From contig NZ_FOIX01000001.1 in the NCBI RefSeq assembly GCF_900109615.1, positions 186,001 to 250,000 on the forward strand: 64,000 bases of DNA, given 5' to 3'. The notes below the pieces were generated by a model. The model saw only the letters and a program-made list of their open reading frames with translations, was not told the origin of the DNA and did no database searches. The position numbers were made by a program, and so were the translations under genes. This stretch comes from Kaistella antarctica. Its GTDB lineage: Bacteria; Bacteroidota; Bacteroidia; Flavobacteriales; Weeksellaceae. Shown here piece after piece: positions 12,844 through 33,399 of the stretch; the stretch's first letter is position 1; the number at the start of each line of letters is the position of its first letter.

Positions 12844-12975
12844 TGAAGAACGTTTTGCAGATTTGCGATGTGGCGGCTTAAATTGCAAAAACTTTCTATT
12901 ATAAACTAAATTTTACAAAACATAAAATCATTCAACTTGGCGAAAACTCCACACTATTGCAAAATCGCTGTAGGC
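12844..12975. repeat. attC-like repeat 25 (type 4, degenerate)
   Basis: The most distal repeat seen. It keeps AACGTTTTGCAG, TTGCGATG.GGCGG and CACTATTGCAAAA, but GTT has become GTA and the arms are eroded. Border predicted at 12850|12851. Confidence 0.75.
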
Positions 12976-13028
12976 ATTTCATTGTTTTGATTTTGATTGA
13001 AGGATTACTTTCTCGAATTCCGTATTGA

Positions 13029-13220
13029 TTACTTTTCATTTTTCTTTAGTTTCAAATAATTAGCAAAATTTGAAAGTGATATTATTAACCAAGCAATTCT
13101 AATAATCCAAATGTTTATTGAATATCCAAACATAGAATGAGGTCCAGGTTCTGAAAGATATCCGATGAATACTATAAATGTTATAATTCCTACAACTAAA
13201 AATAAAGTTTTATTTTTCAT
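13029..13220 (-). CDS. Cassette 25: small two-helix membrane protein
   Basis: This 63-residue protein is almost entirely two membrane helices (LFLVVGIITFIVFIGYL and IWIIRIAWLIISLSNFA) joined by a short loop with Gly, Pro and His, ending in a Lys-rich tail. No family is recognised. It is the only ORF in a 636-bp unit; the 266 bases upstream hold nothing clear. It is the farthest gene from the recombinase and may be decaying or silent. Confidence 0.55.
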   Translation of the reverse strand: MKNKTLFLVVGIITFIVFIGYLSEPGPHSMFGYSINIWIIRIAWLIISLSNFANYLKLKKNEK

Positions 13221-13479
13221 ATTTTGTAATTTTCTTATATTTTTTAATTTTTAAATTCCGGAAGATTTTTGTGGAGATATTTTTAGAAATTTTGTTATTC
13301 GTATCATTAAAACTTTGCTTTTTTACACAAGTTTTAATTTCTATTGCTAATCAGAAAAGCTGTCTTTATGAAGTTTTAAGCAATATGTAATTTCCAATTT
13401 ATAGGTTTATTTTTTTATTTTCCATCGTAACCTATTTGAATTAAGTCATAATGTTCATTTTTGGATATTTTTACAATGA
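13221..13479. other. Gene-free part of cassette 25
   Basis: AT-rich leader without ORF or exact TAnnTTTG box facing the 63-residue gene. Confidence 0.4.
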
Positions 13480-13615
13480 ATGCTAACGGTTGGGTATTGA
13501 CGATGGGCGGGCTTTTTTGCGATAATCTTCAAACGAAAAAATAATCTCCAAAATTGCATAAATTTTCTTTCGAAGACGAAACCCCGCCATATTGCCAAAC
13601 CGATGTTGTGCGATG
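13480..13615. repeat. attC-like repeat 24 (hybrid type)
   Basis: The left arm is of type 1/2 (AACGGTTGGGTATT...GGCGGG) while the right arm is of type 3 (CCCGCCATATTGCCAAACCG). The inner stem is therefore broken except for GGCGGG/CCCGCC. Border at 13486|13487. Confidence 0.8.
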
Positions 13616-13631
13616 TGCTTGTTTATATTTA

Positions 13632-14441
13632 TTAGAACGGAATCTCAACTTGACGACCTAAATATTCTCCATTTTTTATTTCAAGCAATGCAACATATGA
13701 TCCTGCACCATCTGAATTTGATAAATGTAAATACAAAGAATTATCAATTTTGTCAAAATAACATTCTGCATAATTATTGTTAGGATTAAAAAGGTCATCT
13801 ATTTCTTTTTCGAGAATTTTTGTTGTTGTTTTTCCAATTGTTATTGTAATTGATTTATAATAGGTTTTAGGGACTGTACCATCAGTTCCCCACATTTTTT
13901 CACCTTTATACTTTTGAACAACAAAGTCTTCTCTCTGCATTTCTGAAAAATATTTTTTATTTTGTTCGTAATTAAATTTGTCCGTTTTTATTTCTACAAC
14001 AATATCTCGTAGAATAAAATTAACACCATTTTCGTCATCAATTACTGAAGGAATATTTTCTAAAGTATTAATGTATTTAATCCTAGAACGATGTATATAT
14101 CCGTTAAATTCTCTGTTGTTTTCGTCTTTAAAATCCACATTCAGCCATTCTGTTTGCAAATCTTCAAAAATATAAACTACATCTCCAGATTTTATTTTCC
14201 CGATTACATTACTACTAACATTTCCTTTTTCTCTTACATTTACATAACCATCTTTATCAACAATTTTAGCAAAATTGCAAAATGACATAATACAGTTTTC
14301 TGAAATTTCATTTGAATCAATAGTCTTTTTTGCTTCTCTTTTTTGCCTTTCAGTAATTATATTTTCTGAAACCTTTTTCGTTTTGTTTTCACAAGAAATA
14401 AAGAAAAAAGAAAGAACTAAAATTAATAATAATTTTTTCAT
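13632..14441 (-). CDS. Cassette 24: lipoprotein with SH3-like domain
   Basis: The 269-residue protein has a lipoprotein signal peptide (lipobox FISC, Cys at about residue 17). Residues 60-125 form a bacterial SH3-type domain (DGYVNVREKGNVSSNVIGKI...GDVVYIF), which in other proteins binds peptidoglycan or peptides. The C-terminal 140 residues are not recognised. It should be anchored in the periplasm or on the outer membrane. It fills a 1006-bp cassette and has no visible promoter of its own. Confidence 0.75.
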   Translation of the reverse strand: MKKLLLILVLSFFFISCENKTKKVSENIITERQKREAKKTIDSNEISENCIMSFCNFAKIVDKDGYVNVREKGNVSSNVIGKIKSGDVVYIFEDLQTEWLNVDFKDENNREFNGYIHRSRIKYINTLENIPSVIDDENGVNFILRDIVVEIKTDKFNYEQNKKYFSEMQREDFVVQKYKGEKMWGTDGTVPKTYYKSITITIGKTTTKILEKEIDDLFNPNNNYAECYFDKIDNSLYLHLSNSDGAGSYVALLEIKNGEYLGRQVEIPF

Positions 14442-14485
14442 TATTTAGTTAATATTTCATTATTCACGAGGGTTTTTTAGCATGT

Positions 14486-14623
14486 CGCGCAACGGTTTGC
14501 GGTTTGGCGTTCGGGCGGGAAATCGAAGCACAAAACCCGATATTATTACTAAAATTCAATTGGAAAACTGCTGTTGAATTTTGCACTTCAGCCCGCCTGA
14601 CGCAAAACCCTTGTTGTGCGTTC
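14486..14623. repeat. attC-like repeat 23 (type 5, unique)
   Basis: It has its own stem: TTTGCGGTTTGGCGTTCGGGCG pairs loosely with CGCCTGACGCAAAACCC. The outer ends are CGCGCAAC and GTTGTGCG. Border at 14492|14493. No other repeat here shares its loop. Confidence 0.8.
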
Positions 14624-14628
14624 GTTTT

Positions 14629-15708
14629 TTAGTTCAGTTCATAATCGTACAGCCATTTATTTAACTCACTTTTTATATCCACATTAGTTTTTTTGGAAAG
14701 AATAAAATACCAATAGGTTATTAATTCTTTTTCTTTTTTGTCGCGTTCTTCAATTTTTATTTTGTTTAGACTTGATACCAGTTGCTCTTTTATTTGTGCT
14801 GTGTCTTTGTTTTTTTCGCAATACTCAACATCTTTAATGATTATTTGAGTGTAATTCTCAAATTCTGGTTGGGTTATCAATTTATCTTCTAACAGTATTT
14901 TGAATAGTCCGGTAACTTGCTTTTTAATTTCCGAGTAATCTATTTCTTCAGGTTTTATCTTGCTTCGGTTAAAAATGGCAGAAAGTTTATCGTTAATTCC
15001 AAGTTTCTTGATGGTGTCTACTGATGCGTAAAAATCTAAGATAGAGAGATTACTATTCACACTGCCATTGCAGTATTTCAACATTCCGTCAATTAATATT
15101 TTCTTCAGTTCATTGTCAGAAACCGTAGTGTCATTTCGTATTTTGGTAACCGTAGCAATAATACCATCATATTCTGAAGCAGAAATATCTTTGAAAGCAT
15201 CCAATTCCTTTTCTTTATTAATTTGAGCGATTAAATCTGTTAATTTTTCGCTTTCGGTTTGATAATTTTCAAACCAAATTTTCATTACATTTTCTAGTTT
15301 AGTTTGTATCCCATAAATTTCCTGCATTCGTGGAATATTATGGATTTCGATTTCACTTGCTATGTTTTCATAAGTCGAAAAAATAATTGAAAATATTGGT
15401 TGATTAATTTTTATATTTTCTAAACTTTCGATGGTCTTCAAAAACATCTTTTTTAATCTTGGCAAATCAATGTCTTTATGTTTTAAGTAATAATCAAAAT
15501 CTGAATTAAGTCTGTCGTTGATTTGTTTAAATTCATTTTGAGTGATTATTTTTTCATCTTCCAGTTTTTTTAAATCCTCATAGAGCGATTTTCTGTTTAA
15601 ATTAATTGCATCATCTGTTTGACTTTTGATGTCGCTACAAGAAGTAAAAAAAGCAAGTAGTAAAAATAGAATGGTCTTTAGTTTAGATTTTAATTGATGT
15701 TTTTTCAT
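14629..15708 (-). CDS. Cassette 23: hypothetical helical lipoprotein
   Basis: The 359-residue protein starts at MKKHQLKSKLKTI. A start 10 codons upstream at 15738 is possible but would precede the signal peptide with polar residues. The lipobox is FTSC. The rest is rich in Lys, Glu, Ile and Leu and should be mostly alpha-helical. Two similar halves (DLKKLEDEKIITQNEF and LFKILLEDKLITQPEF) suggest an internal duplication. No family is recognised. It is the largest cassette gene of the array. Confidence 0.72.
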   Translation of the reverse strand: MKKHQLKSKLKTILFLLLAFFTSCSDIKSQTDDAINLNRKSLYEDLKKLEDEKIITQNEFKQINDRLNSDFDYYLKHKDIDLPRLKKMFLKTIESLENIKINQPIFSIIFSTYENIASEIEIHNIPRMQEIYGIQTKLENVMKIWFENYQTESEKLTDLIAQINKEKELDAFKDISASEYDGIIATVTKIRNDTTVSDNELKKILIDGMLKYCNGSVNSNLSILDFYASVDTIKKLGINDKLSAIFNRSKIKPEEIDYSEIKKQVTGLFKILLEDKLITQPEFENYTQIIIKDVEYCEKNKDTAQIKEQLVSSLNKIKIEERDKKEKELITYWYFILSKKTNVDIKSELNKWLYDYELN

Positions 15709-15757
15709 CTTGAATTTGTATATGTTTTGTTCCGACAATACTGTTCTTATAAAATGC

Positions 15758-15893
15758 CGAATAACGGTTCTCGGCTTGGCAATGTGGTGGATAAAGAAGC
15801 TGGAAATTTCTATTATTACTGAACTTCAAAGGAAGTAAAATTCCTCGATTTAGCACTAAACCCGCGATATTGCCAAACCGATGTTGTGTGCCG
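15758..15893. repeat. attC-like repeat 22 (type 3)
   Basis: Stem CGGCTTGGCAATGTGG...CCGCGATATTGCCAAACCG. Border at 15764|15765. The right end, GTTGTGTGCC, matches the far end of its cassette (GGCACACAAC at 16651-16660). Confidence 0.88.
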
Positions 15894-15896
15894 TTT

Positions 15897-16607
15897 TTAT
15901 TCAACTCTTTGTCCACAGCATTCATATTTATAATTTTTATCTTCAGCTCTCCATTTTTGTCCAGCTACTAATTTAAAAGTTTTTGCATCTGCTCCTTTCA
16001 CAGTATCACCATCATAAAAAACAACTTTATCATCTTTTATATAGTCAATAAAAAAATCGGTTGTGTCTAATGAATAAAGAATTTCGTGTTTTTCAAAATT
16101 TAAACCTTCAATCTTTTTACCTCGATAAAAAATATTTTTGCTGTCAATTCCGTATAAATAGTCCGATAATGGTTTAAACGTCTTTGGGTTTGCTCCACTT
16201 ACAATCAATCTAAAGGCACCGCTTGAGCTTGCATTTGAATAATAAATATTGTTTATATCTTTTGAGTACATCGTTCCTTCGTCGAATTCTGCATACGTTT
16301 TAATGTCTATTGCTTCTGATAGTGATTTTTCAATTACCGTATCATCCAAATTTATATACACCAAACTGTCAAAATATATTTGGGAATTAATAGTTTCTTC
16401 TTTACCTGCAATTGCATATACTTTTTGTTCAAAAAGCTTTCCGTATTTGTCTGTATAAAATTTCCCCTTTAAATGTTTGTACTTCCAACTATCCTTTGCT
16501 TGAAGTGTTAATGACTTCTCAACCTCTGTATTTTTATCGGTATTGCAACTCGATAATAATATAACAAGAATCGCTAAAACTACTTTAATTGAGATTTGGT
16601 TTATCAT
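15897..16607 (-). CDS. Cassette 22: DKNYY-type lipoprotein (copy B)
   Basis: The 236-residue lipoprotein (lipobox LSSC) has repeated KDINNIYYSN, SKNIFYRGKKIEG and EDKNYKYECCG units, matching the DKNYY repeat family seen in bacterial surface or periplasmic proteins of unknown function. It is nearly identical to 24110-24820: three amino-acid differences, about eight base changes. Both copies sit in cassettes of equal length (895 and 894 bp) with a type 3 repeat on the same side. The whole cassette, not only the gene, has therefore been copied. Confidence 0.8.
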   Translation of the reverse strand: MINQISIKVVLAILVILLSSCNTDKNTEVEKSLTLQAKDSWKYKHLKGKFYTDKYGKLFEQKVYAIAGKEETINSQIYFDSLVYINLDDTVIEKSLSEAIDIKTYAEFDEGTMYSKDINNIYYSNASSSGAFRLIVSGANPKTFKPLSDYLYGIDSKNIFYRGKKIEGLNFEKHEILYSLDTTDFFIDYIKDDKVVFYDGDTVKGADAKTFKLVAGQKWRAEDKNYKYECCGQRVE

Positions 16608-16652
16608 TAATTATATTCTCATTTTCTTTAGGCAACAGTCGGTCTAAAATGG

Positions 16653-16786
16653 CACACAACGGTTGGGTATTTATGCAGGCGGGCCTTTTATAACAAGTCT
16701 TTGTAAATATAACAAAAAGAACAATTAGGGAAAATCTTGATGATAGGGCCTTCCGACCCGCTAATAGAAATACTTTGTTAGCAGAA
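16653..16786. repeat. attC-like repeat 21 (type 2 variant)
   Basis: Left arm GGTATTTATGCAGGCGGG, right arm CCCGCTAATAGAAATACT; the loop is of type 2. Border at 16659|16660. Right end GTTAGCAGAA matches TTCTGCTAAC at 17608-17618. Confidence 0.87.
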
Positions 16787-16792
16787 GTTTTA

Positions 16793-17578
16793 TTAATAAG
16801 AAATTTTGTGATTAAGTTCTATAGGATTGTCATTTGCTTTAATATCTATTTGTCTTGTTTTGATGAATTGATTTAAATCCATTTTTCCACCATTTGTATC
16901 TGTTAATGAAAAATACTTTCCCAATGAAGAATTTAGATCCATAGGGTCATTATAATAAGATTTTGCTAATTTTTCATACTGTTCCCAATCAATATTTTTT
17001 GTTTTACTTCTAACGTCAAATAATTCTCCTAACTTTTTAATTTCTTCTAAATTAAAAGAGTAATCTTTCTTTTCATCTTCAATCGATATGATCAAACCAG
17101 GTAATCCATGAAAAATATAGGGGCCATCGCTAAATCTAAGTTCTGTCGAAAACCATGCAGTCCACTTTCTACCTCCGTAATTTACTTCTGCGTTCTGGCA
17201 TTTATATTTTCCAATCAATTTTTGGTCAGATAAAATTTTCCAATTCAGAATTTCGGTAATTGGAAGGGTATAATCGTTTTTCAAATAGGTTATTAATTTT
17301 ATAACATAATTATCACTAACATTCTTTTTTACATAGAATTGATTTTCAACGCCCATATTTAACAAACCATTCTTATTTATTTGTGCTAAAGAATCTGTTT
17401 TTTTATCAATTGATTGTCTAAAAATCGAATTACTATTTTCGATGTCCAAAACCATTTTCTCAGAAATGGGTTTTGTAGATTCCTGTGATCTAACTTTATA
17501 ACTGACGTCATATATAAAACTAATTTTTTGGCTAGAGCAAAAAGTAGATAATAAAAGTAAAAGTACTGTATACTTCAC
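16793..17578 (-). CDS. Cassette 21: GLPGLI family secreted protein
   Basis: The 261-residue protein has an N-terminal signal peptide (MKYTVLLLLLSTFCSSQ) and the family motif GPYIFHGLPGLIISIED after a YGGRKWTAWFS block. The GLPGLI family is exported, confined to Bacteroidota, and of unknown function. A second member lies outside the array at 37924-38742 with the same order of motifs and the same ending (NPIEL..KI.Y). The cassette copy is therefore a diverged relative of a resident chromosomal gene. Confidence 0.87.
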   Translation of the reverse strand: MKYTVLLLLLSTFCSSQKISFIYDVSYKVRSQESTKPISEKMVLDIENSNSIFRQSIDKKTDSLAQINKNGLLNMGVENQFYVKKNVSDNYVIKLITYLKNDYTLPITEILNWKILSDQKLIGKYKCQNAEVNYGGRKWTAWFSTELRFSDGPYIFHGLPGLIISIEDEKKDYSFNLEEIKKLGELFDVRSKTKNIDWEQYEKLAKSYYNDPMDLNSSLGKYFSLTDTNGGKMDLNQFIKTRQIDIKANDNPIELNHKISY

Positions 17579-17610
17579 GTAATTTTTGATTTGTGGATGT
17601 TTTAAAATTT

Positions 17611-17744
17611 CTGCTAACGTCCGGGTATTTGTGCAGGCGGGATAAAAATACGAAAATTATATACTTGCAATAAATTTGAAAAATGGCGAAAATCTTCAAC
17701 TGAAAACTTCCTACCCGCTTGTATAAATACCATGTTGCGCGATG
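17611..17744. repeat. attC-like repeat 20 (type 1b)
   Basis: AACGTCCGGGTATTTGTGCAGGCGGG with CCCGCTTGTATAAATACC. Border at 17617|17618. It belongs to the gene-less 224-bp cassette. Confidence 0.88.
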
Positions 17745-17841
17745 TTTTTATTTGCAGTTTTTTTGTTTTTCGATTCTCAGACATTTTCTTTAAAACACGG
17801 ATTGATAATCTTCCACGAAGTTTGGACAAAATAGCGCGCAA
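17618..17841. other. Cassette 20: gene-less 224-bp cassette (copy 1 of 3)
   Basis: A complete unit made only of repeat 20 and about 97 bp of unique sequence (TTATTTGCAG to GTTTGGACAAAATAGCG). Copies of exactly 224 bp are at 23047-23270 and 29901-30124. A 75-codon ORF running through it on the minus strand is not conserved in the other copies and crosses the repeat, so I do not call it. It could be a non-coding RNA, a spacer, or a remnant. Confidence 0.75.
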
Positions 17842-17968
17842 CGTTTGCGGCTTTGCGATGGTGCGGCTTAAAATGCCAAATCTTTCTAATATAAACTAAA
17901 CTTCGAGAAATCTAAAATCTTTAAACTTGGCGAAAATCTCGCACTATTGCAAAACCGCTGTTGTGGGA
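17835..17968. repeat. attC-like repeat 19 (type 4)
   Basis: Stem TTGCGGCTTTGCGATGGTGCGG with CGCACTATTGCAAAACCGC. Border at 17841|17842. Right end GTTGTGGG matches CCCACAAC at 18783-18790. Confidence 0.88.
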
Positions 17969-17979
17969 AGGCATATTGT

Positions 17980-18717
17980 TTACTGATATTCATCGTTTCC
18001 ACATATTTCAACTTCTTTCTTCATAACACTTTGCTTTAATAGTTTACCGTTTTTTGCATCATATATTAAAAAAATTAAACTCTTACTATCTTTGGGATTA
18101 TCATAAATAACTTCCCAACTTGGAATAGTAAAGTTTTGATTCTCATCCATTTGATTTTGCTTTCCAATTCGTATTGAATAAGTTCTCCAAAAATAATCAT
18201 CAATTATTTTAGATTTATTTGCATCTATATTTTTCTCTTTTTTTAATTTCTGTTTTAGCATTTCAAATGTAAACGGATATTCTTTATCAGAGTTTAAAGA
18301 ATCTATTTGTCCATCTTCTTTAAAATTATAGTTGTTTCCAATAGAAAATCCTAAATCATTATGTAGGGATTTATCTTTTATTTTTCCGTTTTTGTAAAAC
18401 GTTTTATAAATTGAAATTTTACTCAATGTATCAGTACTTATATACTGTTTAATTCCATAATCATCACTAACAATTGCCATTTTTACGGTGCTATCTGGAT
18501 AAAATTCTTGATATAAACGAACATTAAATACCTTATTTAAACTGTCTAAATGAGATATTTCTTCGAAATTCTTTATATCCAGATATTCAACACTATTTGA
18601 AAAAATTTCTTTTTTTGAAATTTCGTTATTTTTGTTTGGCTTATTTTCACAACTGATTAGAAAAGCAATTTGCGCAAAAACTATAGTAAATTTATTCTTT
18701 ATGGAAATCATCTTCAA
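17980..18717 (-). CDS. Cassette 19: hypothetical lipoprotein
   Basis: The 245-residue protein has a signal peptide with lipobox LISC (Cys at about residue 23). The middle (residues 60-140) resembles toxin-immunity or MORN-like antitoxin proteins, with lines such as YKTFYKNGKIKDKSLHNDLGF and NFKEDGQIDSLNS. The C-terminal third, with IRIGKQNQMDENQNFTIPSWEVIYDNP, is not recognised. No own promoter is visible. Confidence 0.7.
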   Translation of the reverse strand: MKMISIKNKFTIVFAQIAFLISCENKPNKNNEISKKEIFSNSVEYLDIKNFEEISHLDSLNKVFNVRLYQEFYPDSTVKMAIVSDDYGIKQYISTDTLSKISIYKTFYKNGKIKDKSLHNDLGFSIGNNYNFKEDGQIDSLNSDKEYPFTFEMLKQKLKKEKNIDANKSKIIDDYFWRTYSIRIGKQNQMDENQNFTIPSWEVIYDNPKDSKSLIFLIYDAKNGKLLKQSVMKKEVEICGNDEYQ

Positions 18718-18782
18718 GTTTTTTTTTATTATTTATATAAACCTGGTATTTTAATTTCATAATGTCATTTTGTAAATGCTTG

Positions 18783-18917
18783 CCCACAACGATTCTCGGC
18801 TTGGCGATGTGGCGGATAAGAAAGCCGAAACTTTCTCTTATCGTTGAACTTCGAACGAAGCATCAACGTTCGATTTAGCACTAAACCCGCCATATTGCCA
18901 AACCGATGTTAGCAGCA
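18783..18917. repeat. attC-like repeat 18 (type 3)
   Basis: Stem CGGCTTGGCGATGTGGCGG with CCGCCATATTGCCAAACCG. Border at 18789|18790. Its end GTTAGCAG matches the far border (CCGCTAAC) in only 6 bases, one of four imperfect cases. Confidence 0.87.
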
Positions 18918-18925
18918 GTTTTTTT

Positions 18926-19543
18926 TTAATTTTGCAAATCTAAATTCATCCATTCACCACGATGAGTTTTCCCTATTAATTTTTCTTGAAAATCTTTTTT
19001 AACAATGAATAATTCAGTCCTTAAAGATATTTTATCTTTTAATTCATTCGTTAATTTTAAATAGTACAGTTTAGAATTAAAAACAGAATTGACGATAATC
19101 ATTCTATCTGATAATTGCCAATAGCAACTCGTATAATCAGAATCTATATTTTTACGATTCACAATTTCAGGATTCCCATATTTTGTAGTTAATTCCCCAA
19201 TAAATTGTGTTAGAGGAACTATATTGTTGTCATGTCTAAAAGAAGTTTTTATTGCCATTAGTTGTTTATTTTCATCCTGAATTATTACAATTCCATTAAA
19301 AAATGTTTCTCCGTAAAAACTTAAACTGTCACCAAATGTCATGTAAGTATTTACAATTTTTGTAGAATCATAATCAAGTTCAAGAGTGTCTTTTTGCAGG
19401 AATTTTTCTTTAGAAAAGTAGTCATCCATTTTTTTGTCGAAATTAAAAGTTTCAAGGTTAAGTTTTTTATATCCCAATTTTTCATTTTGAGCGCAGGATA
19501 AAACACAGAACATGATTAGGGGTATAAAAATTATTTTTTTCAT
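18926..19543 (-). CDS. Cassette 18: hypothetical lipoprotein
   Basis: The 205-residue protein begins MKKIIFIPLIMFCVLSCAQ, a clear lipoprotein signal. The mature part contains alternating beta-like stretches (TFGDSLSFYGETFFNGIVIIQDENKQLMAIKTS, then LTTKYGNPEIV) and a basic region near the end. No family is recognised. It sits in a 780-bp cassette, with the stop codon 9 bases from the repeat end. Confidence 0.7.
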   Translation of the reverse strand: MKKIIFIPLIMFCVLSCAQNEKLGYKKLNLETFNFDKKMDDYFSKEKFLQKDTLELDYDSTKIVNTYMTFGDSLSFYGETFFNGIVIIQDENKQLMAIKTSFRHDNNIVPLTQFIGELTTKYGNPEIVNRKNIDSDYTSCYWQLSDRMIIVNSVFNSKLYYLKLTNELKDKISLRTELFIVKKDFQEKLIGKTHRGEWMNLDLQN

Positions 19544-19562
19544 ATTTTTTGTGTTAAAATTA

Positions 19563-19695: not shown

Positions 19696-19698
19696 TTT

Positions 19699-20247: not shown

Positions 20248-20266
20248 AAACGCTTTTTTAAAATGG

Positions 20267-20403: not shown

Positions 20404-20417
20404 TTTTTTGTTTCAAT

Positions 20418-25734: not shown

Positions 25735-25737
25735 TTT

Positions 25738-26571: not shown

Positions 26572-26599
26572 ATTTTTTGGCGCAATTTTTTTAAAATGG

Positions 26600-26736
26600 C
26601 AGACAACGGTTGGGTATTTCTGTTGGCGGGACTTTTTATAAATGGTATTTGTAAATATAACAAATTGAACAATTAGCGAAAATCTTCATGATAGGAACTT
26701 CCGGCCCGCTAATAGAAATACCTTGTTGTACACAGT
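26600..26736. repeat. attC-like repeat 8 (type 2)
   Basis: GGTATTTCTGTTGGCGGG with CCCGCTAATAGAAATACC. Border at 26606|26607. Right end GTTGTACACA matches TGTACAAC at 27406-27413. Confidence 0.9.
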
Positions 26737-26742
26737 TTTTTT

Positions 26743-27369
26743 TTACATTTTGGTTATAAGTTCACATAGTTCAGCGTATTTTTTTCCATTGTAAACGTCA
26801 GGACTATTTCTTGTAACGAGATGATATTTTCCGTCAATTAAAACTTCCAGAATCCACTCGGCGCCGTCATTTATTCTGTTAGGATCTTGCGTTTGAATAT
26901 TCCAAAAATCAACTTCATCTAGTTTAGAAATTAAATGATTCCATTTTTTATTGTTGACTTTTTTCGTGTAGTTTTTAATTAATTTACCTGTTTGATAACC
27001 TCCTAATCCATCTGTTTGGCGATATGTTACATTTATTTTATCAGCGAATTTTTCAACTCTGTATGTATAAGGATGATCCCATGTTCCTAAATTAGTGAAC
27101 CGGATAATTTGCAAATTTTTGTCTTTTTTGTCAAAAATTATTGGTTCGTTAAGTGAATTTAAGTGTTGAGAATACCATTTGTTTGTGAACGTAGACAGTG
27201 AATCGTTTGGACCTCTATTAATCGTATCCCTCGGATATTTATTACTATCGTATGAAGAAAAATACAAATCTCCAGTGTAATCGTTCACAGAATTTTTTGG
27301 AATAATTATTTTGGTGCTAGTACAACTGATTATCACAAGTAAATATAAATATGGTAGAATTTTTCTCAA
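26743..27369 (-). CDS. Cassette 8: hypothetical lipoprotein
   Basis: The 208-residue protein has a lipobox (VIISC, Cys at about residue 16). The mature part includes TYRVEKFADKINVTYRQTDGLGGYQTGKLIKNYTKKV and DGAEWILEVLIDGKYHLVTRNSPD, a compact alpha/beta pattern with many aromatic residues. No family is recognised. The stop codon is 7 bases from the repeat. Confidence 0.72.
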   Translation of the reverse strand: MRKILPYLYLLVIISCTSTKIIIPKNSVNDYTGDLYFSSYDSNKYPRDTINRGPNDSLSTFTNKWYSQHLNSLNEPIIFDKKDKNLQIIRFTNLGTWDHPYTYRVEKFADKINVTYRQTDGLGGYQTGKLIKNYTKKVNNKKWNHLISKLDEVDFWNIQTQDPNRINDGAEWILEVLIDGKYHLVTRNSPDVYNGKKYAELCELITKM

Positions 27370-27405
27370 AGTTTTATTTTTGTGCGAAAATCTTGTTTAA
27401 AATTG

Positions 27406-27540
27406 TGTACAACGTTTTGCGGCTTTGCGATGGTGCGGATTAATATGACAACTCTTTCTATTATAAACTAAATTTCGAAATACCTAAAATATTTAAACAT
27501 GCGAAAATCCCGCACTATTGCAAAACCGCTGTTAGCGGTT
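27406..27540. repeat. attC-like repeat 7 (type 4)
   Basis: TTGCGGCTTTGCGATGGTGCGG with CCGCACTATTGCAAAACCGC. Border at 27412|27413. The stop codon of the WGR gene (27532-27534) lies within its GTTAGCGG end. Confidence 0.92.
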
Positions 27541-28251
27541 CGGGCTTTTTCTTTTCCAATTTTCTTTGTTACTAAAAGTTTCAAAGGAAAGTCGGGTTTC
27601 AATAAACTCTTCGTCAGTTTTAAGTTTTTTATTATATGCTTCTTCGGGTAAATATAGTATTGCTTCAAAATCCATTTCTTCCGGCATTTGAGTTGGGTCA
27701 TTTAAAACACTTTCATAGTAATCCTTTCCATTTGCTATAACGCAGCATCTTACATAAAGAAAATAATCTGTAGAAAAAAATTCTTTTTCATTTTTGTATG
27801 AATCAGGTCCAATATTAGAAGCATAAATTAAACCGTCTAAATTGTATAATTTTTCTGCCATAATTTCAGCGAATTCTTGAATATCTTCAATGGTCATAGA
27901 AACTAACCTTTTTAATGCAGGTTTTAAAACAGCATCATCATCACCCGTTTTTTTCCAATTAAATGTTGAAATTATTTCCCAAAATATGTTTTCGTCCATT
28001 GGCTTATATTCTAAAATAGTTTTCTGTGGTACAATATTCAAGTCTTTAATTTCTAAATAACCTTTCCTAGTTTTTTCTTTTATTAGTTTTTCTATTTCTT
28101 TATAACATTCATCTTTTGAGCCCAATTCTTTTTCATTACTTCTTCCTTCTGTCCCTAACCTTCCCCATTGAACAAAATATTTTTCTTCAAATTGTTCAAT
28201 TGTCCAAAATTTATTTGAATCTCCAGTTTGATTGATAAAATTCCGTTTCAT
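27532..28251 (-). CDS. Cassette 7: WGR domain + DUF4240 protein
   Basis: The 239-residue cytosolic protein has a WGR domain at residues 1-75 (FWTIEQFEEKYFVQWGRLGTEG), a module that binds nucleic acid in some proteins (for example PARPs) and is common in bacterial MolR-like proteins. Residues 85-230 match DUF4240 (MDENIFWEIISTFNWKK...LSMTIEDIQEFAEIM-like). The pair is known in Bacteroidota without a defined function. The last codons, including the TAA, are inside repeat 7. The intact copy of a tandem cassette duplication. Confidence 0.85.
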   Translation of the reverse strand: MKRNFINQTGDSNKFWTIEQFEEKYFVQWGRLGTEGRSNEKELGSKDECYKEIEKLIKEKTRKGYLEIKDLNIVPQKTILEYKPMDENIFWEIISTFNWKKTGDDDAVLKPALKRLVSMTIEDIQEFAEIMAEKLYNLDGLIYASNIGPDSYKNEKEFFSTDYFLYVRCCVIANGKDYYESVLNDPTQMPEEMDFEAILYLPEEAYNKKLKTDEEFIETRLSFETFSNKENWKRKSPNR

Positions 28252-28300
28252 TTATTTACTTAAATTTCTTATAATCGTCGGTTCTGTTTTTTTAGCCTGA

Positions 28301-28435
28301 CCGCTAACGTTTTGCGGCTTTGCGATGGTGCGGATTAATATGACAACTCTTTCTATTATAAACTAAATTTCGAAATACCTAAAATATTTAAACATGCGAA
28401 AATCCCGCACTATTGCAAAACCGCTGTTAGCGGTT
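28301..28435. repeat. attC-like repeat 6 (type 4)
   Basis: Base-for-base like repeat 7 as far as I can see. Border at 28307|28308, which is exactly 895 bp from border 7. Confidence 0.92.
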
Positions 28436-29146
28436 CGGGCTTTTTCTTTTCCAATTTTCTTTGTTACTAAAAGTTTCAAAGGAAAGTCGGGTTTCAATAA
28501 ACTCTTCGTCAGTTTTAAGTTTTTTATTATATGCTTCTTCGGGTAAATATAGTATTGCTTCAAAATCCATTTCTTCCGGCATTTGAGTTGGGTCATTTAA
28601 AACACTTTCATAGTAATCCTTTCCATTTGCTATAACGCAGCATCTTACATAAAGAAAATAATCTGTAGAAAAAAATTCTTTTTCATTTTTGTATGAATCA
28701 GGTCCAATATTAGAAGCATAAATTAAACCGTCTAAATTGTATAATTTTTCTGCCATAATTTCAGCGAATTCTTGAATATCTTCAATGGTCATAGAAACTT
28801 ACCTTTTTAATGCAGGTTTTAAAACAGCATCATCATCACCCGTTTTTTTCCAATTAAATGTTGAAATTATTTCCCAAAATATGTTTTCGTCCATTGGCTT
28901 ATATTCTAAAATAGTTTTCTGTGGTACAATATTCAAGTCTTTAATTTCTAAATAACCTTTCCTAGTTTTTTCTTTTATTAGTTTTTCTATTTCTTTATAA
29001 CATTCATCTTTTGAGCCCAATTCTTTTTCATTACTTCTTCCTTCTGTCCCTAACTTTCCCCATTGAACAAAATATTTTTCTTCAAATTGTTCAATTGTCC
29101 AAAATTTATTTGAATCTCCAGTTTGATTGATAAAATTCCGTTTCAT
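28427..29146 (-). pseudogene. Cassette 6: second WGR-DUF4240 copy, broken by a premature stop
   Basis: This is a tandem copy of 27532-28251 at a period of 895 bp. Codon 116 (TTA, Leu) has become TAA at 28799-28801 through one base change (plus-strand A to T), splitting it into 115- and 121-residue ORFs. The only other coding difference I see is Arg to Lys in the WGR motif itself (VQWGKLG). Both changes hit important positions, so the copy is probably relaxed from selection. Confidence 0.88.
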
Positions 29147-29195
29147 TTATTTACTTAAATTTCTTATAATCGTCGGTTCTGTTTTTTTAGCCTGA

Positions 29196-29340
29196 CCGCT
29201 AACGGTTAGGTATTTCTGTTGGCGGGGACTTTTTATAACAAATCTTTGTAAATATAACAAATTGAACAACTAGCAAAAATCTTGATGATAGGAACTTCCG
29301 ACCCGCTGATAGAAATACCATGTTGTGCGTTCGCTCTTAT
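29196..29340. repeat. attC-like repeat 5 (type 2)
   Basis: GGTATTTCTGTTGGCGGG with CCCGCTGATAGAAATACC. Border at 29202|29203. Right end GTTGTGCGT versus GACGCACAAC at 29892-29901. Confidence 0.9.
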
Positions 29341-29369
29341 TTTGCGGATTTTACTTTTCATTTAAGATT

Positions 29370-29849
29370 TTAGTTTCGAGTTGAATTCAGCATGTTCAAT
29401 CCAGCAATTGCTAAACCATTTTTGGGAAATTCTTTCAATGTCAGTTCGTAATATTCTTTGGCTTTCTGTCCATTGTTTATTTGACTATAACAGAAAGCAA
29501 TATTGCAAAGACCCATTTCTTTATAGGTTAGTTTTGAAGAACTTAAAAGTGTCAAAAATCTGTATTTATCAATCCACGAATTGCGTGTGAAATATTCAAC
29601 ACTTTTTCTAAAGAAAAAAATTGCTTCTTCATATTTTTTTTGATTAACTAATTTCATTCCTTGTCTATGATCTTTTGCAACGAAATTTCTTAATCCAAAT
29701 GATAAAATTAAATATGTCAATGCTCCAAATATAAGAGGTTCTTTACTTCCAAATAGAAAATATAAATACACTAAAATTCCCACCAATATAAGTTGAGGAA
29801 CTACAGAAATCCAAGCGATTTGTTTAATTGTAGGAACATGTGAAGCCAT
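29370..29849 (-). CDS. Cassette 5: membrane-anchored TPR-like protein
   Basis: The 159-residue protein has two membrane helices at residues 10-32 and 36-56. A soluble helical domain of two or three TPR-like hairpins follows (MKLVNQKKYEEAIFFFRKSVEYF and NIAFCYSQINNGQKAKEYYELTLKEFP). TPRs mediate protein contacts. The helical part should face the cytoplasm or periplasm depending on topology, which I cannot fix. No partner is known. Confidence 0.75.
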   Translation of the reverse strand: MASHVPTIKQIAWISVVPQLILVGILVYLYFLFGSKEPLIFGALTYLILSFGLRNFVAKDHRQGMKLVNQKKYEEAIFFFRKSVEYFTRNSWIDKYRFLTLLSSSKLTYKEMGLCNIAFCYSQINNGQKAKEYYELTLKEFPKNGLAIAGLNMLNSTRN

Positions 29850-29893
29850 ATTTTTGTGTCAGTTTTTCTTTTAGAAATGTTATTTTAGAGTGA

Positions 29894-30025
29894 CGCACAA
29901 CGTCCGGGTATTTGTGCAGGCGGGATAAAAATACGAAAATTACATACGTGCTATAAATTTGAAAAATAGCGAAAATCTTCAACTGAAAACATCCTACCCG
30001 CTTGTATAAATACCTTGTTGCGCGA
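29894..30025. repeat. attC-like repeat 4 (type 1b)
   Basis: GGGTATTTGTGCAGGCGGG with CCCGCTTGTATAAATACC. Border at 29900|29901. Third member of the 1b group that always goes with the 224-bp cassette. Confidence 0.88.
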
Positions 30026-30124
30026 TGTTTTTATTTGCAGTTTTTTTGTTTTTCGATTCTCAGATATTTTCTTTAAAAAACGCATTGATAATCTTCCACT
30101 AAGTTTGGATAAAATAGCGCGCAA
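29901..30124. other. Cassette 4: gene-less 224-bp cassette (copy 3 of 3)
   Basis: Same length as copies 1 and 2, with a few base changes. It holds no ORF of note. All three copies keep the TTATTTGCAG and GATTCTCAGA-like blocks, which could hint at a conserved RNA or at recent spread. Confidence 0.75.
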
Positions 30125-30250
30125 CGGTTGGGTATTTGTGCAGGCGGGATAAAAATACGAAAATTAACTACTTGCTATAAATTTAATTAATCGCTAAAAT
30201 CTTCGACTGAAAATTTCCTACCCGCTTGTATAAATACCTTGTTACCAGAA
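30118..30250. repeat. attC-like repeat 3 (type 1a)
   Basis: GGTATTTGTGCAGGCGGG with CCCGCTTGTATAAATACC. Border at 30124|30125. Right end GTTACCAG matches CTGGTAAC at 30890-30897. Confidence 0.88.
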
Positions 30251-30640
30251 GCGCCTGTTTCCATCTTCCAAATAATTCTTTTGAATTTGATCATTTAGAT
30301 GTTAAAACTCAAAATTTTTTTATTTATTCAAGCAGTTTTGCGCCATGATTTTGCAGTTTTTTGGTTTGTCTTTTTGCGAGAACTGTTTTTTTAGTTCAGT
30401 TTTTATTCACAAAGTTGGTTCGCAAAGTTTGGTTTGATATGTTACCAGAAGCGCCTGTTTCCATCTTCCAAATAATTCTTTTGAATTTGATCATTTAGAT
30501 GTTAAAACTCAAATTTTTTTTATTTATTCAAGCAGTTTTGCGCCATGATTTTGCAGTTTTTTGGTTTGTCTTTTTGCGAGAACTGTTTTTTTAGTTCAGT
30601 TTTTATTCACAAAGTTGGTTCGCAAAGTTTGGTTTGATAT
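30241..30640. repeat. Tandem 200-bp duplication inside cassette 3
   Basis: Bases 30241-30440 and 30441-30640 are copies with one visible difference. Each begins with GTTACCAGAAGCG, so the duplication starts exactly at the GTT end of the repeat. No ORF runs through it. Confidence 0.9.
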
Positions 30641-30837
30641 TTAATTCCAGCGCAATTTCTTGTCAAAAATAGAGTAGAAGTAGCTTGGAACGTTACCAAG
30701 TAAACGTCGTTGATAATTTTGTCTAAATCAACGCTTTCGGAATATTTGGCGGAGTTTTCAGAGTCAATAATAGAAACAGAATTTAGACCTTGTGCGCAAA
30801 GAAAGTTTGGTCTGAATTCAGTTTCTTTAAAGTTCAA
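30607..30837 (-). CDS. Cassette 3: doubtful 76-residue ORF
   Basis: This is the longest ORF of the cassette and begins MNFKETEFRPNFLCAQG. There is no signal peptide, domain or similarity that I recognise, and its end lies in the tandem duplication. It may be the remains of a longer gene that was disrupted by the duplication. Confidence 0.3.
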   Translation of the reverse strand: MNFKETEFRPNFLCAQGLNSVSIIDSENSAKYSESVDLDKIINDVYLVTFQATSTLFLTRNCAGIKYQTKLCEPTL

Positions 30838-30889
30838 ATTTTGATAATTTCCGACCCTTTAATTTGATGCGAAATTTTCAATGGCGTTG

Positions 30890-31022
30890 CTGGTAACGGT
30901 TGGGTATTTATGCAGGCGGGATAAAAATACGAAAACTTTATACATGCTAAAAACTTAATTAATTGCTAAAATCTTCGATGAAAACTTCAGACCCGCTTGT
31001 ATAAATACCGTGTTGTAGGCAG
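30890..31022. repeat. attC-like repeat 2 (type 1a)
   Basis: GGTATTTATGCAGGCGGG with CCCGCTTGTATAAATACC, a full 18-bp stem with two G.T pairs. Border at 30896|30897. Right end GTTGTAG matches CTACAAC at 31414-31420. Confidence 0.9.
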
Positions 31023-31029
31023 TTTTTAT

Positions 31030-31374
31030 TTATCCGTGATGAACATAAATTTTGGTTACTTTATTGTTTTTATCAAATGTCAAAGTTAAATTTCCAGTAT
31101 TAATTCCGCGTTTTGAATAACCAAGATAATAAGAGTATTCAGTATCAGTTTTAGATTCTGGATTTCCGAGCAATTTTATGACTTCAGTTTTATTCATGCC
31201 AATAATTTCATATTGATTTCTTAGATCATTCATCATGTCCCATCTTAAACTCCAATTTTCTTCGGCATTTAATTCAGAGTTTTTCCAATTTTCCGAATTG
31301 AATTTTTCATGACTAACTTTCCCGCAACTTAAAGCGATAAATAGAATTACGATATATAAGAATGAAGTTTTCAA
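31030..31374 (-). CDS. Cassette 2: small lipoprotein, BamE/SmpA-like core
   Basis: The 114-residue protein has a lipobox (IALSC). The mature part has the layout of the small SmpA/OmlA-type fold: MNKTEVIKLLGNPESKTDTEYSYYLGY followed by strands LTLTFDKNNKVTKIYVHH. The motif G..(K/R).EV...LG.P is typical of that fold (also of beta-lactamase-inhibitor-like proteins). This gives a fold, not a role. It is the second gene from the recombinase. Confidence 0.75.
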   Translation of the reverse strand: MKTSFLYIVILFIALSCGKVSHEKFNSENWKNSELNAEENWSLRWDMMNDLRNQYEIIGMNKTEVIKLLGNPESKTDTEYSYYLGYSKRGINTGNLTLTFDKNNKVTKIYVHHG

Positions 31375-31412
31375 AACCTGTTATTTTTGAGACGATACTT
31401 TGATTAAAATTG

Positions 31413-31545
31413 ACTACAACGGTTGGGTATTTATGCAGGCGGGATAAAAATACGAAAACTTTATACTTGCTAAAAACTTAATTAATCGCTAAAATCTTCG
31501 ATGAAAACTTCATACCCGCTTGTATAAATACTTTGTTATGCGGCG
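31413..31545. repeat. attC-like repeat 1 (type 1a, proximal)
   Basis: The repeat nearest the recombinase. Border at 31419|31420. Its right end GTTATGCG matches the last bases of cassette 1 at the attI-like junction (CGCATAAC at 32149-32156). The GGTATTTATGCAGGCGGG arm pairs with CCCGCTTGTATAAATAC. Confidence 0.9.
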
Positions 31546-31551
31546 TTTTTT

Positions 31552-32121
31552 TTATGAAATTCCTATTTTTTGTACTTTTTTTATTTTCCATTTATTTTCA
31601 TCTTTTAAGATGTAGACCAAATATGTTACAGAACATCTGATGTTACAAGAATATGTAACTGTTAAGACTCCGTTGTTAAGATTTCCGTCAAAATATATGT
31701 GAGAAAATTCTAGAACACCAGAGAAAGTTTTATATTTATTTGCCCAATTGTCAAACGATTCCTCAAAAGGCAATGTCGATAAATCTTTGAATTTATATTT
31801 TTGCGAATTATATTTTTCAGCGTTAATTCTTGATATTAAATCGTCTGAAATTTTAAATTTTGTAGGAATTTCTTTTAAATCATATTCATGAATTCCAGTC
31901 ATTTCATTTCTTATTGCAACAATTCTGCTTATGGTGTCCTTTCTAATTGAGTCTATTTGTTTTTTTGAATAATCGAAACCTATATAAGTTCGTCTGTCAA
32001 TTAAGGTTGAATCAACAATATTTAAGAAGGTATCATCAATTCCTTTTTGTTCAATATTTTTAGTCTGTCTGTTACAGGAAAAAATTGAAAGAAGCAATAT
32101 TAAATAAAATAAGATTTTCAT
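31552..32121 (-). CDS. Cassette 1: hypothetical lipoprotein
   Basis: I start at ATG 32121 (MKILFYLILLLSIFSCNRQ), a clear lipoprotein signal, giving 189 residues. The longer frame to 32172 crosses the cassette border and is not used. The mature part contains KIDSIRKDTISRIVAIRNEMTG-like helical sequence, then strands ending in VTYSCNIRCSVTYLVYILKDENKWKIKKVQKIGIS, with two Cys that may pair. No family is recognised. As the first cassette it should be the best expressed if the attI promoter is active. Confidence 0.75.
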   Translation of the reverse strand: MKILFYLILLLSIFSCNRQTKNIEQKGIDDTFLNIVDSTLIDRRTYIGFDYSKKQIDSIRKDTISRIVAIRNEMTGIHEYDLKEIPTKFKISDDLISRINAEKYNSQKYKFKDLSTLPFEESFDNWANKYKTFSGVLEFSHIYFDGNLNNGVLTVTYSCNIRCSVTYLVYILKDENKWKIKKVQKIGIS

Positions 32122-32149
32122 ATTCAGGCGCGATGGTGGATAAAATGTC

Positions 32150-32298
32150 GCATAACTCCCAAATATACGCAACTTTCACAAACTAAAAAAAAATATTATT
32201 TAGGGTGAAATCCACGCTGTCAAATGATTACCTATGATATAACTTTACAGTTATACAAAATACGCAAGTTTAACTATTTTAAATACGCAGCTTGAACT
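32150..32298. other. attI-like attachment region
   Basis: Everything between the last base of cassette 1 (AA|C at 32155|32156) and the recombinase ATG. It contains three direct copies of TACGCAAsTT: 32166-32175, 32261-32270 and 32284-32293 (the last is TACGCAGCTT). In class 1 integrons attI carries direct repeats bound by the integrase; these are candidates for the same role. The half-site next to the crossover reads AACTCCCAAATA, unlike any attC-like repeat here. Confidence 0.7.
32160..32167 (-). promoter_or_regulatory. Promoter-like box facing the array (Pc-like)
   Basis: Minus-strand TATATTTG is an exact TAnnTTTG match. Transcription would begin about at the first base of cassette 1. I found no other exact match in the short leaders of the cassette genes by eye. 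No convincing -33 element at the usual distance. Confidence 0.5.
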
Positions 32299-33399
32299 AT
32301 GGAAAATATGCAGTCCTCTTTTGATAGAAAATTCTTCACCCCAGAAGAAGCAACCCATCGCGACAAGAAAATAATCTGGATTAAATTTCCGAAAGATTTT
32401 ACCTTATTAAAAATGCTGAAAACTGTTGCAAAATGCAAATGGTCTCATAGCCAAAAATCATGGTACGTCACCGATAATAATTTTAACCGAGACCTTTTTG
32501 GCTTAGAAAAAAGAATCGTTGGCAAAGACGTCTTGCTAAAAATACATGGCAATAATTTAGCCCAGTTTCAAAAATATCAAAATCAACTTATTCTCAAAGG
32601 ATTTAGTCCGAACACCATCCGCGTTTACTCCCTAGAATTTGCTCAATTGCTCTACACCCTCAAATCTTTTTCGGTCCAAAACCTCACCAAAGAAAAATTA
32701 CAAAGCTATTTTCTCTATTGTCACAAAGAATTAAATATCTCCGAAAACCAGATCCACAGCCGCATGAATGCCGTGAAATTCTATTTCGAAAAAGTATTGC
32801 ATCAAGACAAAATGTTTTTTGATATTCCCCGGCCCAAAAAACCTCTGCTCCTGCCAAAAGCCCTCAACACCGCCGAAATCACCAAACTCATCAGCGTTAC
32901 CCATAATCCAAAACACAAACTGATCCTTCAATTATGCTACGGCATGGGCTTACGCGTCAGTGAAATCGTCAACATCAAAATAGAACACGTGGACTCGAAA
33001 ACCATGAAGGTCCTCATCGCCCACGGAAAAGGAAAAAAAGACCGCTACGTCAATTTACCCCAAAGTATTTTACTCGATTTACGGCTTTATTACAAAGCCT
33101 TTGCTCCCAAAGTCTATCTCTTCGAAGGACAGGCTGGCGGCCAATACGCCCTCAGAAGCGCCCAATCTGTTTTTAAAATATCCATGAACAAAGCCCGCAT
33201 TAAAAAGACAGTCGGCATTCACAGTTTGCGCCACTCTTACGCCACTCATCTCTTAGAATTTGGCACAGACATCAGCTTAATTCAGAAATTATTGGGACAC
33301 AATGATATTAAAACAACCTTGCAATACACCCAGGTTTCAGACCGCACCATTTCTAACGTGAAGTCTCCACTTGATCACCTCCAAAGTCCAAAATCCTAG
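32299..33399 (+). CDS. Tyrosine recombinase of the cassette array
   Basis: The 366-residue protein has all catalytic residues of a tyrosine recombinase: R219 (GMGLRVSE), K244 (GKGKKDRYV), H308 and R311 (HSLRHSYATHLL), H334 (LLGHNDIKTT) and nucleophile Y343 (YTQVS). Residues 85-180 are a core-binding SAM-like domain (GFSPNTIRVYSLEFAQLL). Residues 1-75 are an extra N-terminal domain with KIIWIKFPKD and CKWSHSQKSWYV, a pattern I know from other Bacteroidota integrases. Only 64 residues separate K244 and H308, close to XerD and far less than in IntI1, so the IntI insertion is absent. It is transcribed away from the array. It probably cuts at AA|C on the repeats. Confidence 0.9.
   Translation: MENMQSSFDRKFFTPEEATHRDKKIIWIKFPKDFTLLKMLKTVAKCKWSHSQKSWYVTDNNFNRDLFGLEKRIVGKDVLLKIHGNNLAQFQKYQNQLILKGFSPNTIRVYSLEFAQLLYTLKSFSVQNLTKEKLQSYFLYCHKELNISENQIHSRMNAVKFYFEKVLHQDKMFFDIPRPKKPLLLPKALNTAEITKLISVTHNPKHKLILQLCYGMGLRVSEIVNIKIEHVDSKTMKVLIAHGKGKKDRYVNLPQSILLDLRLYYKAFAPKVYLFEGQAGGQYALRSAQSVFKISMNKARIKKTVGIHSLRHSYATHLLEFGTDISLIQKLLGHNDIKTTLQYTQVSDRTISNVKSPLDHLQSPKS

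Follow-up and report, generated by a model that had tools for sequence, protein, structure and literature searches.

Sedentary chromosomal integrons of the IntI type carry an attI site beside the integrase gene, cassettes in a single orientation, cassette ends that pair with the start of their own cassette, and small genes of unknown function. IntI itself has been characterised as a tyrosine recombinase with an additional domain near patch III (PMC9668308), and canonical attC sites, in the account of their structure in PMC2727003, have extrahelical bases on one arm (R''-L'') that select the bottom strand and mostly a C before the GTT. The taxonomic account of IntegronFinder 2.0 places one complete integron in Bacteroidetes proper, that of Salinibacter ruber M1, with others in Chlorobi and Ignavibacteriae (PMC9024848); a 2021 review counts Bacteroidota among the phyla with integrons (PMC8618304), and a tyrosine recombinase survey of the same year calls the insertion essential to the function of integrons while noting its incomplete conservation in the integron-like subgroup (PMC8138268). 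Here we describe a cassette array in a 64,000-nucleotide stretch of the 3.13-Mb genome of Kaistella antarctica (contig NZ_FOIX01000001.1, positions 186,001 to 250,000; hereafter the window, numbered from its first letter). With a probability of about 90%, judged from sequence comparisons, it is an integron-like gene-cassette platform run by a tyrosine recombinase of a non-IntI family. A literature search, with bioRxiv and most subscription papers outside its reach, returned no report of this system.

The platform shares with sedentary chromosomal integrons an attI-like junction by the recombinase, cassettes of small unknown genes in one orientation, palindromic R''-L''...L'-R' sites with AAC/GTT ends, and cassette ends that pair with their own starts; it differs in a recombinase without the IntI insertion and in site stems with 1x1 mismatches rather than extrahelical bases. 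Like clusters of attC sites lacking integron integrases (CALIN), it is an attC-like array in a genome with no IntI over cut-off, but a non-IntI recombinase, fixed in its placement relative to the array, adjoins one end. With XerA and the XerCD-dif systems it shares a simple tyrosine recombinase whose nearest NCBIfam model is XerA; it differs from them in lying beside cassette arrays, in a genome that has two other Xer-like genes, and in falling on the other side of a well-supported tree branch (100/99). The anatomy is like that of an integron; by the IntI criterion the system is not a member.

Cassette boundaries, sites and the attI-like junction

Between positions 12852 and 32156 lie 25 cassettes of 224–1272 bp, all on the minus strand, spanning about 19 kb and adjoining a divergent recombinase gene. 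The divergent tyrosine recombinase, the attI-like gap and the single cassette orientation had each been proposed in a first-pass annotation of the window, and each was upheld when tested. The elements at the recombinase end are as follows.

32299..33399, plus strand: tyrosine recombinase of 366 aa, with an N-terminal domain (about residues 1-90), a SAM-like core-binding domain and a catalytic domain
32154..32298, minus strand: attI-like region, with the predicted crossover at GTT 32154-32156, the start of cassette 1
32160..32167, minus strand: predicted cassette promoter TATATTTG, a match to TAnnTTTG

Each of the 25 minus-strand sites extends over 120-127 bp (about 123 bp) from AAC to CGTT in gene direction, with an invariant C before the GTT. 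The features expected of attC were found: a palindrome, AAC/GTT R boxes, paired L boxes and a position at the 3' end of the cassette. The sites were located by anchored patterns and their ends set by hand; an unanchored inverted-repeat search with AAC/GTT ends returned mostly chance pairs and missed them. Rfam at gathering cut-offs gave no match in the window, and ARAGORN found no tRNA or tmRNA there.

If cutting and joining take place at GTT, the outer bases on the AAC side meet the start of their own cassette in the free circle and should therefore pair with it; in the array each site abuts the start of the neighbouring cassette instead. Over 23 cassettes of the window the outer bases pair with their own start in 96% of cases at each of five positions, compared with 30, 30, 30, 13 and 87% for the touching start, and the own-start total over six positions was reached by none of 20000 shuffles.

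The same comparison was extended to other arrays. A family sample of 148 genomes, in which the recombinase was counted at E<=1e-40 and sites at E<=1e-4, held 94 recombinase places besides that of the window; 80 were fetched, the 14 weakest being left out, together with as much as 10 kb of flank on either side of the recombinase, and scanned with a model built on the sites of the window. By identity to the window recombinase and by length they were divided into bin 1 (at least 45% identity, 58 loci), bin 2 (35-41%, 16 loci) and bin 3 (38-40%, N-terminal domain absent, 6 loci). On a tree bin 3 forms one group and bins 1 and 2 nearly do so, with L140 outside bin 2 and order-level rows inside bins 1 and 2. 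An order set comprised 20 loci, 19 of them from other families (of 61 order-level places outside the own family) plus L227 from the own family, and a named-genome set comprised the best 80 of 544 recombinase relatives, partly from the same genomes as the family sample.

Scoring cassettes in which at least four of five bases pair, and excluding sites without AAC or GTT where expected and neighbours more than 2.5 kb apart, own-start pairing exceeded pairing with the touching start in the congener G114 (43/43 vs 7/43), the other bin-1 loci (61/67 vs 18/67), bin 2 (21/24 vs 5/24), bin 3 (8/8 vs 4/8) and the order set (24/29 vs 8/29), with 0 of 5000 shuffles reaching the own-start count in each. 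This is the scar expected of units that would pass through a circular form.

Aligned, the window sites have a common stem of 16 bp, 11 of whose 16 pairs show compensatory changes. Among 90 sites from outside bin 1, 94.6% of stem positions were paired and 489 two-sided changes were counted; none of 500 shuffles reached these values or the covariation score. The stem lacks the extrahelical bases of integron attC, and its consensus holds two 1x1 mismatches instead. In the window the R'' arm contributes A and the R' arm C to these mismatches in 22/24 and 23/24 sites. The inner mismatch is A/C in 87/90 sites outside bin 1 and 113/117 bin-1 sites, while the paired columns vary freely, and the outer one in 53/90 and 94/117, all counted on alignments fitted to the window-derived model, which somewhat favours these letters. 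An extra base, usually on the other arm, accompanies the outer mismatch in at least 11/90 and at least 7/117 sites (counted over the seven commonest types). The bottom strand, on which A.C becomes G.T, folds more stably in 21/24 window sites, 59 of the 80 foldable sites outside bin 1 and 96/107 in bin 1. We infer that the inner mismatch of fixed polarity, A.C on the top and G.T on the bottom strand, selects the strand; the substrate would then be the folded bottom strand of the site, picked by this mismatch and not by extrahelical bases.

A junction next to the recombinase was found in the same way. In the window the cassette 1 start GTTATGCG pairs with the R'' CGCATAAC of site 1. For every locus with a usable first site, the outer bases of that site were used to predict an 8-mer start of the first cassette, which was sought within 300 bp of the recombinase; an exact match was obtained in 56 of 68 loci, which represent 64 distinct regions and include the window, compared with a mean of 0.34 and a maximum of 3 when the outer bases were shuffled among loci. 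An attI-like junction thus stands next to the recombinase, and new cassettes would enter there. By eye, many divergent loci have a common junction resembling CGTATATTTGAGT directly before GTT, and many codirectional loci an inverted repeat and ATATAARTAA directly before GTT. TAnnTTTG is the -7 promoter element of Bacteroidota, and in 27 of the 36 divergent loci with an exact start it ends 2-4 nt before the junction. A TTG upstream of it is found in a minority (see below). A cassette promoter in attI is likely; it would express the first cassettes. Five loci (L082, L083, L085, L086 and L084, in G004, G027, G126, G032 and G089), from genomes of different genera, have recombinases that score equally against that of the window (465.8 bits) and attI regions identical over 90 bases, so that this platform has probably spread horizontally in recent times.

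As far as sequence comparison reaches, unit boundaries at CGTT, units able to close on themselves, an attI-like junction and a fixed polarity of the arrays are established. In the mechanism that we propose, the recombinase would insert cassettes at attI and excise them as circles, an activity to which its catalytic residues and its association with the arrays point.

A recombinase related to IntI but without its insertion

Pfam recognises phage integrase and SAM-like domains in the recombinase. R219, K244, H308, R311 and Y343 are invariant among 16 aligned proteins and H334 is nearly so; from family knowledge we take these six to be the catalytic residues. No NCBIfam model exceeds its cut-off, so that the protein is not assigned to the XerC, XerD or XerA equivalogs: the best is XerA (NF040815; 187.7 bits, cut-off 220), followed by the IntI model TIGR02249 (168 bits, cut-off 265), XerC (155.4 bits, cut-off 335) and XerD (150.7 bits, cut-off 330). 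The first-pass annotation had counted 64 residues between the catalytic Lys and His and concluded that the IntI insertion is absent; measurement from K244 to H308 confirmed this, and TIGR02249 matches in two separate stretches with the insertion missing, leaving no additional domain near patch III. The distance from the GKG motif to HxLRH is 63 or 65 residues in 56 of 59 bin-1 proteins, and 107 residues in the two of twelve IntI proteins that the pattern could measure.

The most serious alternative is that the recombinase is a divergent IntI that lost its additional domain, the locus then being an ordinary integron with an unusual integrase. Two trees were built, using 10 and 7 of 12 IntI sequences. 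In the one that includes XerC and XerD (43 proteins), these are separated from the recombinase family and IntI together (100/99), which favours that alternative, as do the two-piece match of TIGR02249 and the best structural match of the AlphaFold model, the integron integrase 2a3v (E 5.7e-13), ahead of an archaeal Xer. The model has a pLDDT of 82.7 and a pTM of 0.49; the placement of its domains is uncertain and its matches are only supporting. In the same tree IntI forms one group (100/100) on a long branch, and the recombinase family is one side of a branch that holds no IntI, with modest support (82/82, not starred). Together with XerA rather than IntI as the best NCBIfam model, and with a site stem that lacks the extrahelical arrangement described for IntI sites in PMC2727003, this makes descent from an IntI by loss of the domain unlikely, at perhaps the weight of a serious minority view. 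The first-pass term 'Xer-like' holds for the nearest NCBIfam model, although that match is below cut-off, and fails on the tree, which joins the family to IntI. Its broader proposal of a parallel, non-IntI cassette system in Bacteroidota is supported by the array, the junction, the polarity and the missing insertion.

Matches in PHROGs are to generic integrases, and annotated plasmid records call some relatives 'site-specific tyrosine recombinase/integron integrase', an ambiguous label. The top named relative among the matches listed is a Kaistella yonginensis recombinase, 84% identical over most of its length. Many Acinetobacter plasmids carry a recombinase 43.6% identical over residues 126-361, which one record calls TnpF.

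Cassette content and turnover

The cassettes, numbered from the recombinase, are listed below with their sites and open reading frames (ORFs).

Cassette 1, 31421..32156, minus: site 31418-31537; ORF 31552-32172 as listed
Cassette 2, 30898..31420, minus: site 30895-31014; ORF 31030-31374, BamE-like domain
Cassette 3, 30126..30897, minus: site 30123-30243; sole ORF of 76 aa, 30607-30837
Cassette 4, 29902..30125, minus: 224 bp, no gene; site 29899-30019
Cassette 5, 29204..29901, minus: site 29201-29324; ORF 29370-29849, TPR
Cassette 6, 28309..29203, minus: site 28306-28428; ORF split in two; copy of cassette 7
Cassette 7, 27414..28308, minus: site 27411-27533; ORF 27532-28251, WGR and DUF4240
Cassette 8, 26608..27413, minus: site 26605-26727; ORF 26743-27369, DUF6438 below cut-off
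Cassette 9, 25609..26607, minus: site 25606-25726; ORF 25738-26571, CarboxypepD_reg-like
Cassette 10, 24874..25608, minus: site 24871-24994; ORFs 25010-25267 and 25267-25575
Cassette 11, 23980..24873, minus: site 23977-24098; ORF 24110-24820; copy of cassette 22
Cassette 12, 23272..23979, minus: site 23269-23391; ORF 23411-23917
Cassette 13, 23048..23271, minus: 224 bp, no gene; site 23045-23165
Cassette 14, 21906..23047, minus: site 21903-22025; ORF 22037-22999
Cassette 15, 21347..21905, minus: site 21344-21467; ORF 21482-21904, the one array ORF for which the G114 region has a relative (63%)
Cassette 16, 20275..21346, minus: site 20272-20393; ORF 20418-21287
Cassette 17, 19571..20274, minus: site 19568-19687; ORF 19699-20376
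Cassette 18, 18791..19570, minus: site 18788-18910; ORF 18926-19543
Cassette 19, 17843..18790, minus: site 17840-17962; ORF 17980-18717
Cassette 20, 17619..17842, minus: 224 bp, no gene of its own; site 17616-17736
Cassette 21, 16661..17618, minus: site 16658-16779; ORF 16793-17578, Porph_ging
Cassette 22, 15766..16660, minus: site 15763-15885; ORF 15897-16607, DKNYY; copy of cassette 11
Cassette 23, 14494..15765, minus: site 14491-14615; ORF 14629-15738; exception to own-start pairing
Cassette 24, 13488..14493, minus: site 13485-13607; ORF 13632-14441, SH3_3 just below cut-off
Cassette 25, 12852..13487, minus: degenerate site 12849-12975 (GCC, not AAC); 63-aa ORF 13029-13220

The claim of 25 units, each with a minus-strand gene and a repeat, thus stood for the sites and fell for the genes, cassettes 4, 13 and 20 having none of their own. 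The start codon listed for the ORF of cassette 1 falls in attI, and an inner ATG start is likelier. Cassette 3 contains a perfect 200-bp tandem duplication (30240-30439 and 30440-30639), each copy starting near TGTTACCAG. Pfam assigned most of 20 cassette proteins to no known family or to envelope-like ones and named few, and PADLOC matched no defence system in the 7 cassette proteins submitted.

Whole cassette units are duplicated, to judge from the extent of the copies. Cassettes 6 and 7 match at 893 of 895 bases, and their similarity stops exactly at CGTT on either side; cassettes 11 and 22 are separated by 8.2 kb, share 98.4% identity over an alignment of 893 bases and end at the same boundary. 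Between two congeners the content has changed almost completely. The congener G114, with a recombinase 81% identical to that of the window and 44 usable sites, shares with it, over a 60-kb region and besides the recombinase, a single matching cassette ORF (63%) and a DNA copy of the gene-less 224-bp cassettes (91-93% identical). The fixed gene order between relatives that the first-pass annotation had named as grounds for abandoning its proposal was therefore not what this comparison found.

These results bear on the possibility that such a system built the array and its recombinase has since become inactive, leaving a relic. A degenerate last site, the broken gene of cassette 6 and the mispaired cassette 23 would fit a relic; the recombinase ORF is open and retains its catalytic residues, the duplicated units are near-identical (99.8% and 98.4%) and turnover relative to the congener is near-total, which leaves this explanation quite improbable.

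The platform lies between two flanking genes.

10713..12401, minus strand: MenD-like thiamine pyrophosphate-dependent enzyme, left flank
33802..35925, plus strand: elongation-factor-G (EF-G)-like gene, right flank

In G114 the array lies at C1:1.15-1.19 Mb, and menD at 2.02 Mb, about 200 bp from an EF-G-like gene. The two genes are at most 1.5 kb apart with no array, in some cases with an intervening gene, in 9 of 29 congeners, the nine that this comparison resolves since its loci reached only 1.5 kb. From this array-free neighbourhood we conclude that the platform was either inserted at the menD/EF-G position or moved. Content turnover between two congeners, and absence of the platform from the same place in nine, are documented at the level of these alignments. 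A 146-bp repeat, 88% identical between its copies at 12440-12585 and 33479-33624, flanks the whole platform. Its copies were considered as transposon ends and ruled out as such, since the repeat family has 13 matches dispersed over the genome; being dispersed, it could have brought the platform in by homologous recombination between copies.

Distribution, resistance cassettes and implications

In the family sample the recombinase is present in 84/148 genomes and attC-like sites in 111/148. IntI over cut-off was found in 0/148, and the XerD model matches 148/148 at E<=1e-60, 126 of them over cut-off. Among loci whose array side extends for at least 2 kb, sites are present at 32 of 40 in bin 1 (L097 among them by a wrong-sided site only), at 11/11 in bin 2 and at 5/5 in bin 3. 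They lie upstream of the recombinase on the opposite strand in bin 1 (133/135 sites) and bin 3 (18/18) and downstream on the same strand in bin 2 (42/42); in each layout the arrays point away from the recombinase. The first-pass expectation that homologues always lie beside such repeats accordingly holds for most loci and fails for eight in bin 1. Sites were also found in 17 of the 20 order-set loci, with 57/57 pointing away from the recombinase, and at 43 loci of the named-genome set, with 98/99 pointing away; where the flanks are each at least 2.5 kb long, 32 of 45 named loci have them. By title, the named loci with sites belong to Flavobacteriales, Chitinophagales, Cytophagales, Sphingobacteriales, Bacteroidales and Saprospiraceae, on what we take to be the placement of their genera. 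One metagenome-assembled genome labelled Phycisphaerales (L282) has a recombinase 56% identical and two sites, reflecting either wrong binning or transfer outside Bacteroidota.

That the sites are instead an attC cluster maintained by an IntI elsewhere in the cell, with an incidental recombinase next to it, is hardly credible: arrays without an adjacent recombinase do exist, but no IntI exceeds the cut-off in the family sample, the side and strand of the arrays track the recombinase, and 20 XerD neighbourhoods from genomes of that sample gave no site at E<=1. In a phylum sample IntI was over cut-off in 84/296 genomes, one of them in the class of the window and none in its order. An IntI-like hit in G118 (147.5 bits; L204, 12869-13744, within a site array) was counted neither as IntI nor as a member of the family; by the look of its sequence we presume it to be an IS91-type-associated integrase. 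Terminators or repetitive extragenic palindromic (REP)-like repeats among an expanded lipoprotein family, suggested by their position at gene 3' ends and by several products resembling small envelope proteins, can be dismissed, as the gene-less 224-bp cassettes carry the same sites and neither own-start pairing nor the attI prediction would follow.

The site of cassette 23 (14491-14615) also has a 78.5% match in Empedobacter brevis plasmids that carry lnu(H), and on an E. brevis plasmid this lincosamide resistance gene lies between two sites of the present type. On the Empedobacter plasmid L342 arr, a rifampin ADP-ribosyltransferase gene at 1470-1916, stands directly before a site of the same type at 1954-2085 and may also be a cassette. 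Relatives of IS110-family transposases and of group II introns are known to target attC sites. In a Chryseobacterium plasmid array (L343, NZ_CP041688.1) an IS110-family transposase and a group II intron maturase, at 10194-11195 and 12660-13976, lie among the sites on the opposite strand.

Several observations weigh against a cassette platform run by the adjoining recombinase. Eight of the 40 roomy bin-1 loci have no site by the model, and the wrong-sided L097 makes a ninth; sites are missing likewise from 3 of 20 order-set loci and 13 of the 45 roomy named loci. At least six congeners (G026, G075, G085, G100, G105 and G131) have sites with no recombinase at E<=1e-40. In the source genome, where the site model gives 43 matches at E<=0.01, some of them beyond the window, a second array (C2:450168-461280) lies far from the recombinase, and site pairs occur at C2:425025-426054 and C6:267890-268971; own-start pairing in the second array is 5/5 vs 1/5 for the touching start, a weak result reached by 42 of 5000 shuffles. 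Own-start pairing has a clear exception in cassette 23. Behind lnu(H), the R'' (CCGCTAAC) pairs at 5/5 outer bases with its own start (GTTAGCGG) and at 4/5 with the touching start (GTTAGCTG), so that this case fits but cannot discriminate. The predicted start was not exact in 12 of 68 loci, and a TTG lies 17-23 nt upstream of TAnnTTTG in just 12/27 attI regions and is absent in the window. Two of five covariation measures on the 90 sites outside bin 1, those counting pairs and pair types, were not above shuffles, and a site model derived from the window misses diverged sites and biases later alignments toward the window structure. For the 29 loci that are siteless or have a contrary site only, a search by attI pattern, which had no chance control and skipped L078, L114 and L123 (fewer than 100 bases before the recombinase), gave a junction in 19, and four of the 29 have an R'' of their own further along; given these junctions, diverged sites may partly account for the siteless loci.

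Integron surveys search for IntI, and in the flavobacterial family sampled here 111 of 148 genomes contain sites, with recombinase loci beside arrays in several orders of Bacteroidia. If the system is active, the IntI domain would not be needed to recombine attC hairpins, and the inner mismatch would suggest a new answer to strand choice. In Riemerella anatipestifer, a member of the same bacterial family, aph(3')-IVb is reported to integrate without homology, together with 27 bp of preceding and 140 bp of following sequence; the authors compare this integration to findings on lnu(H) and blaRATA and describe an attC-like fold for the 140 bp, and their section on aph(3')-IVb, which mentions neither a recombinase nor attI, regards the mechanism as 'yet to be fully elucidated' (PMC13148043, 2026). 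The gene lnu(H) sits in a cassette with the present type of site; if active, the system described here offers a mechanism for this homology-free uptake of a resistance gene. We put forward, as a tentative and somewhat less than even proposition, that the platform represents a Bacteroidia-wide second kind of integron, with recombinases that are sisters of IntI but lack its domain, folded single-stranded sites and an A.C/G.T strand mark, serving as the main system of cassette capture, resistance genes included. If this is true, IntI and the present family would share a hairpin-handling ancestor, and the IntI lineage would have gained its domain only afterwards.

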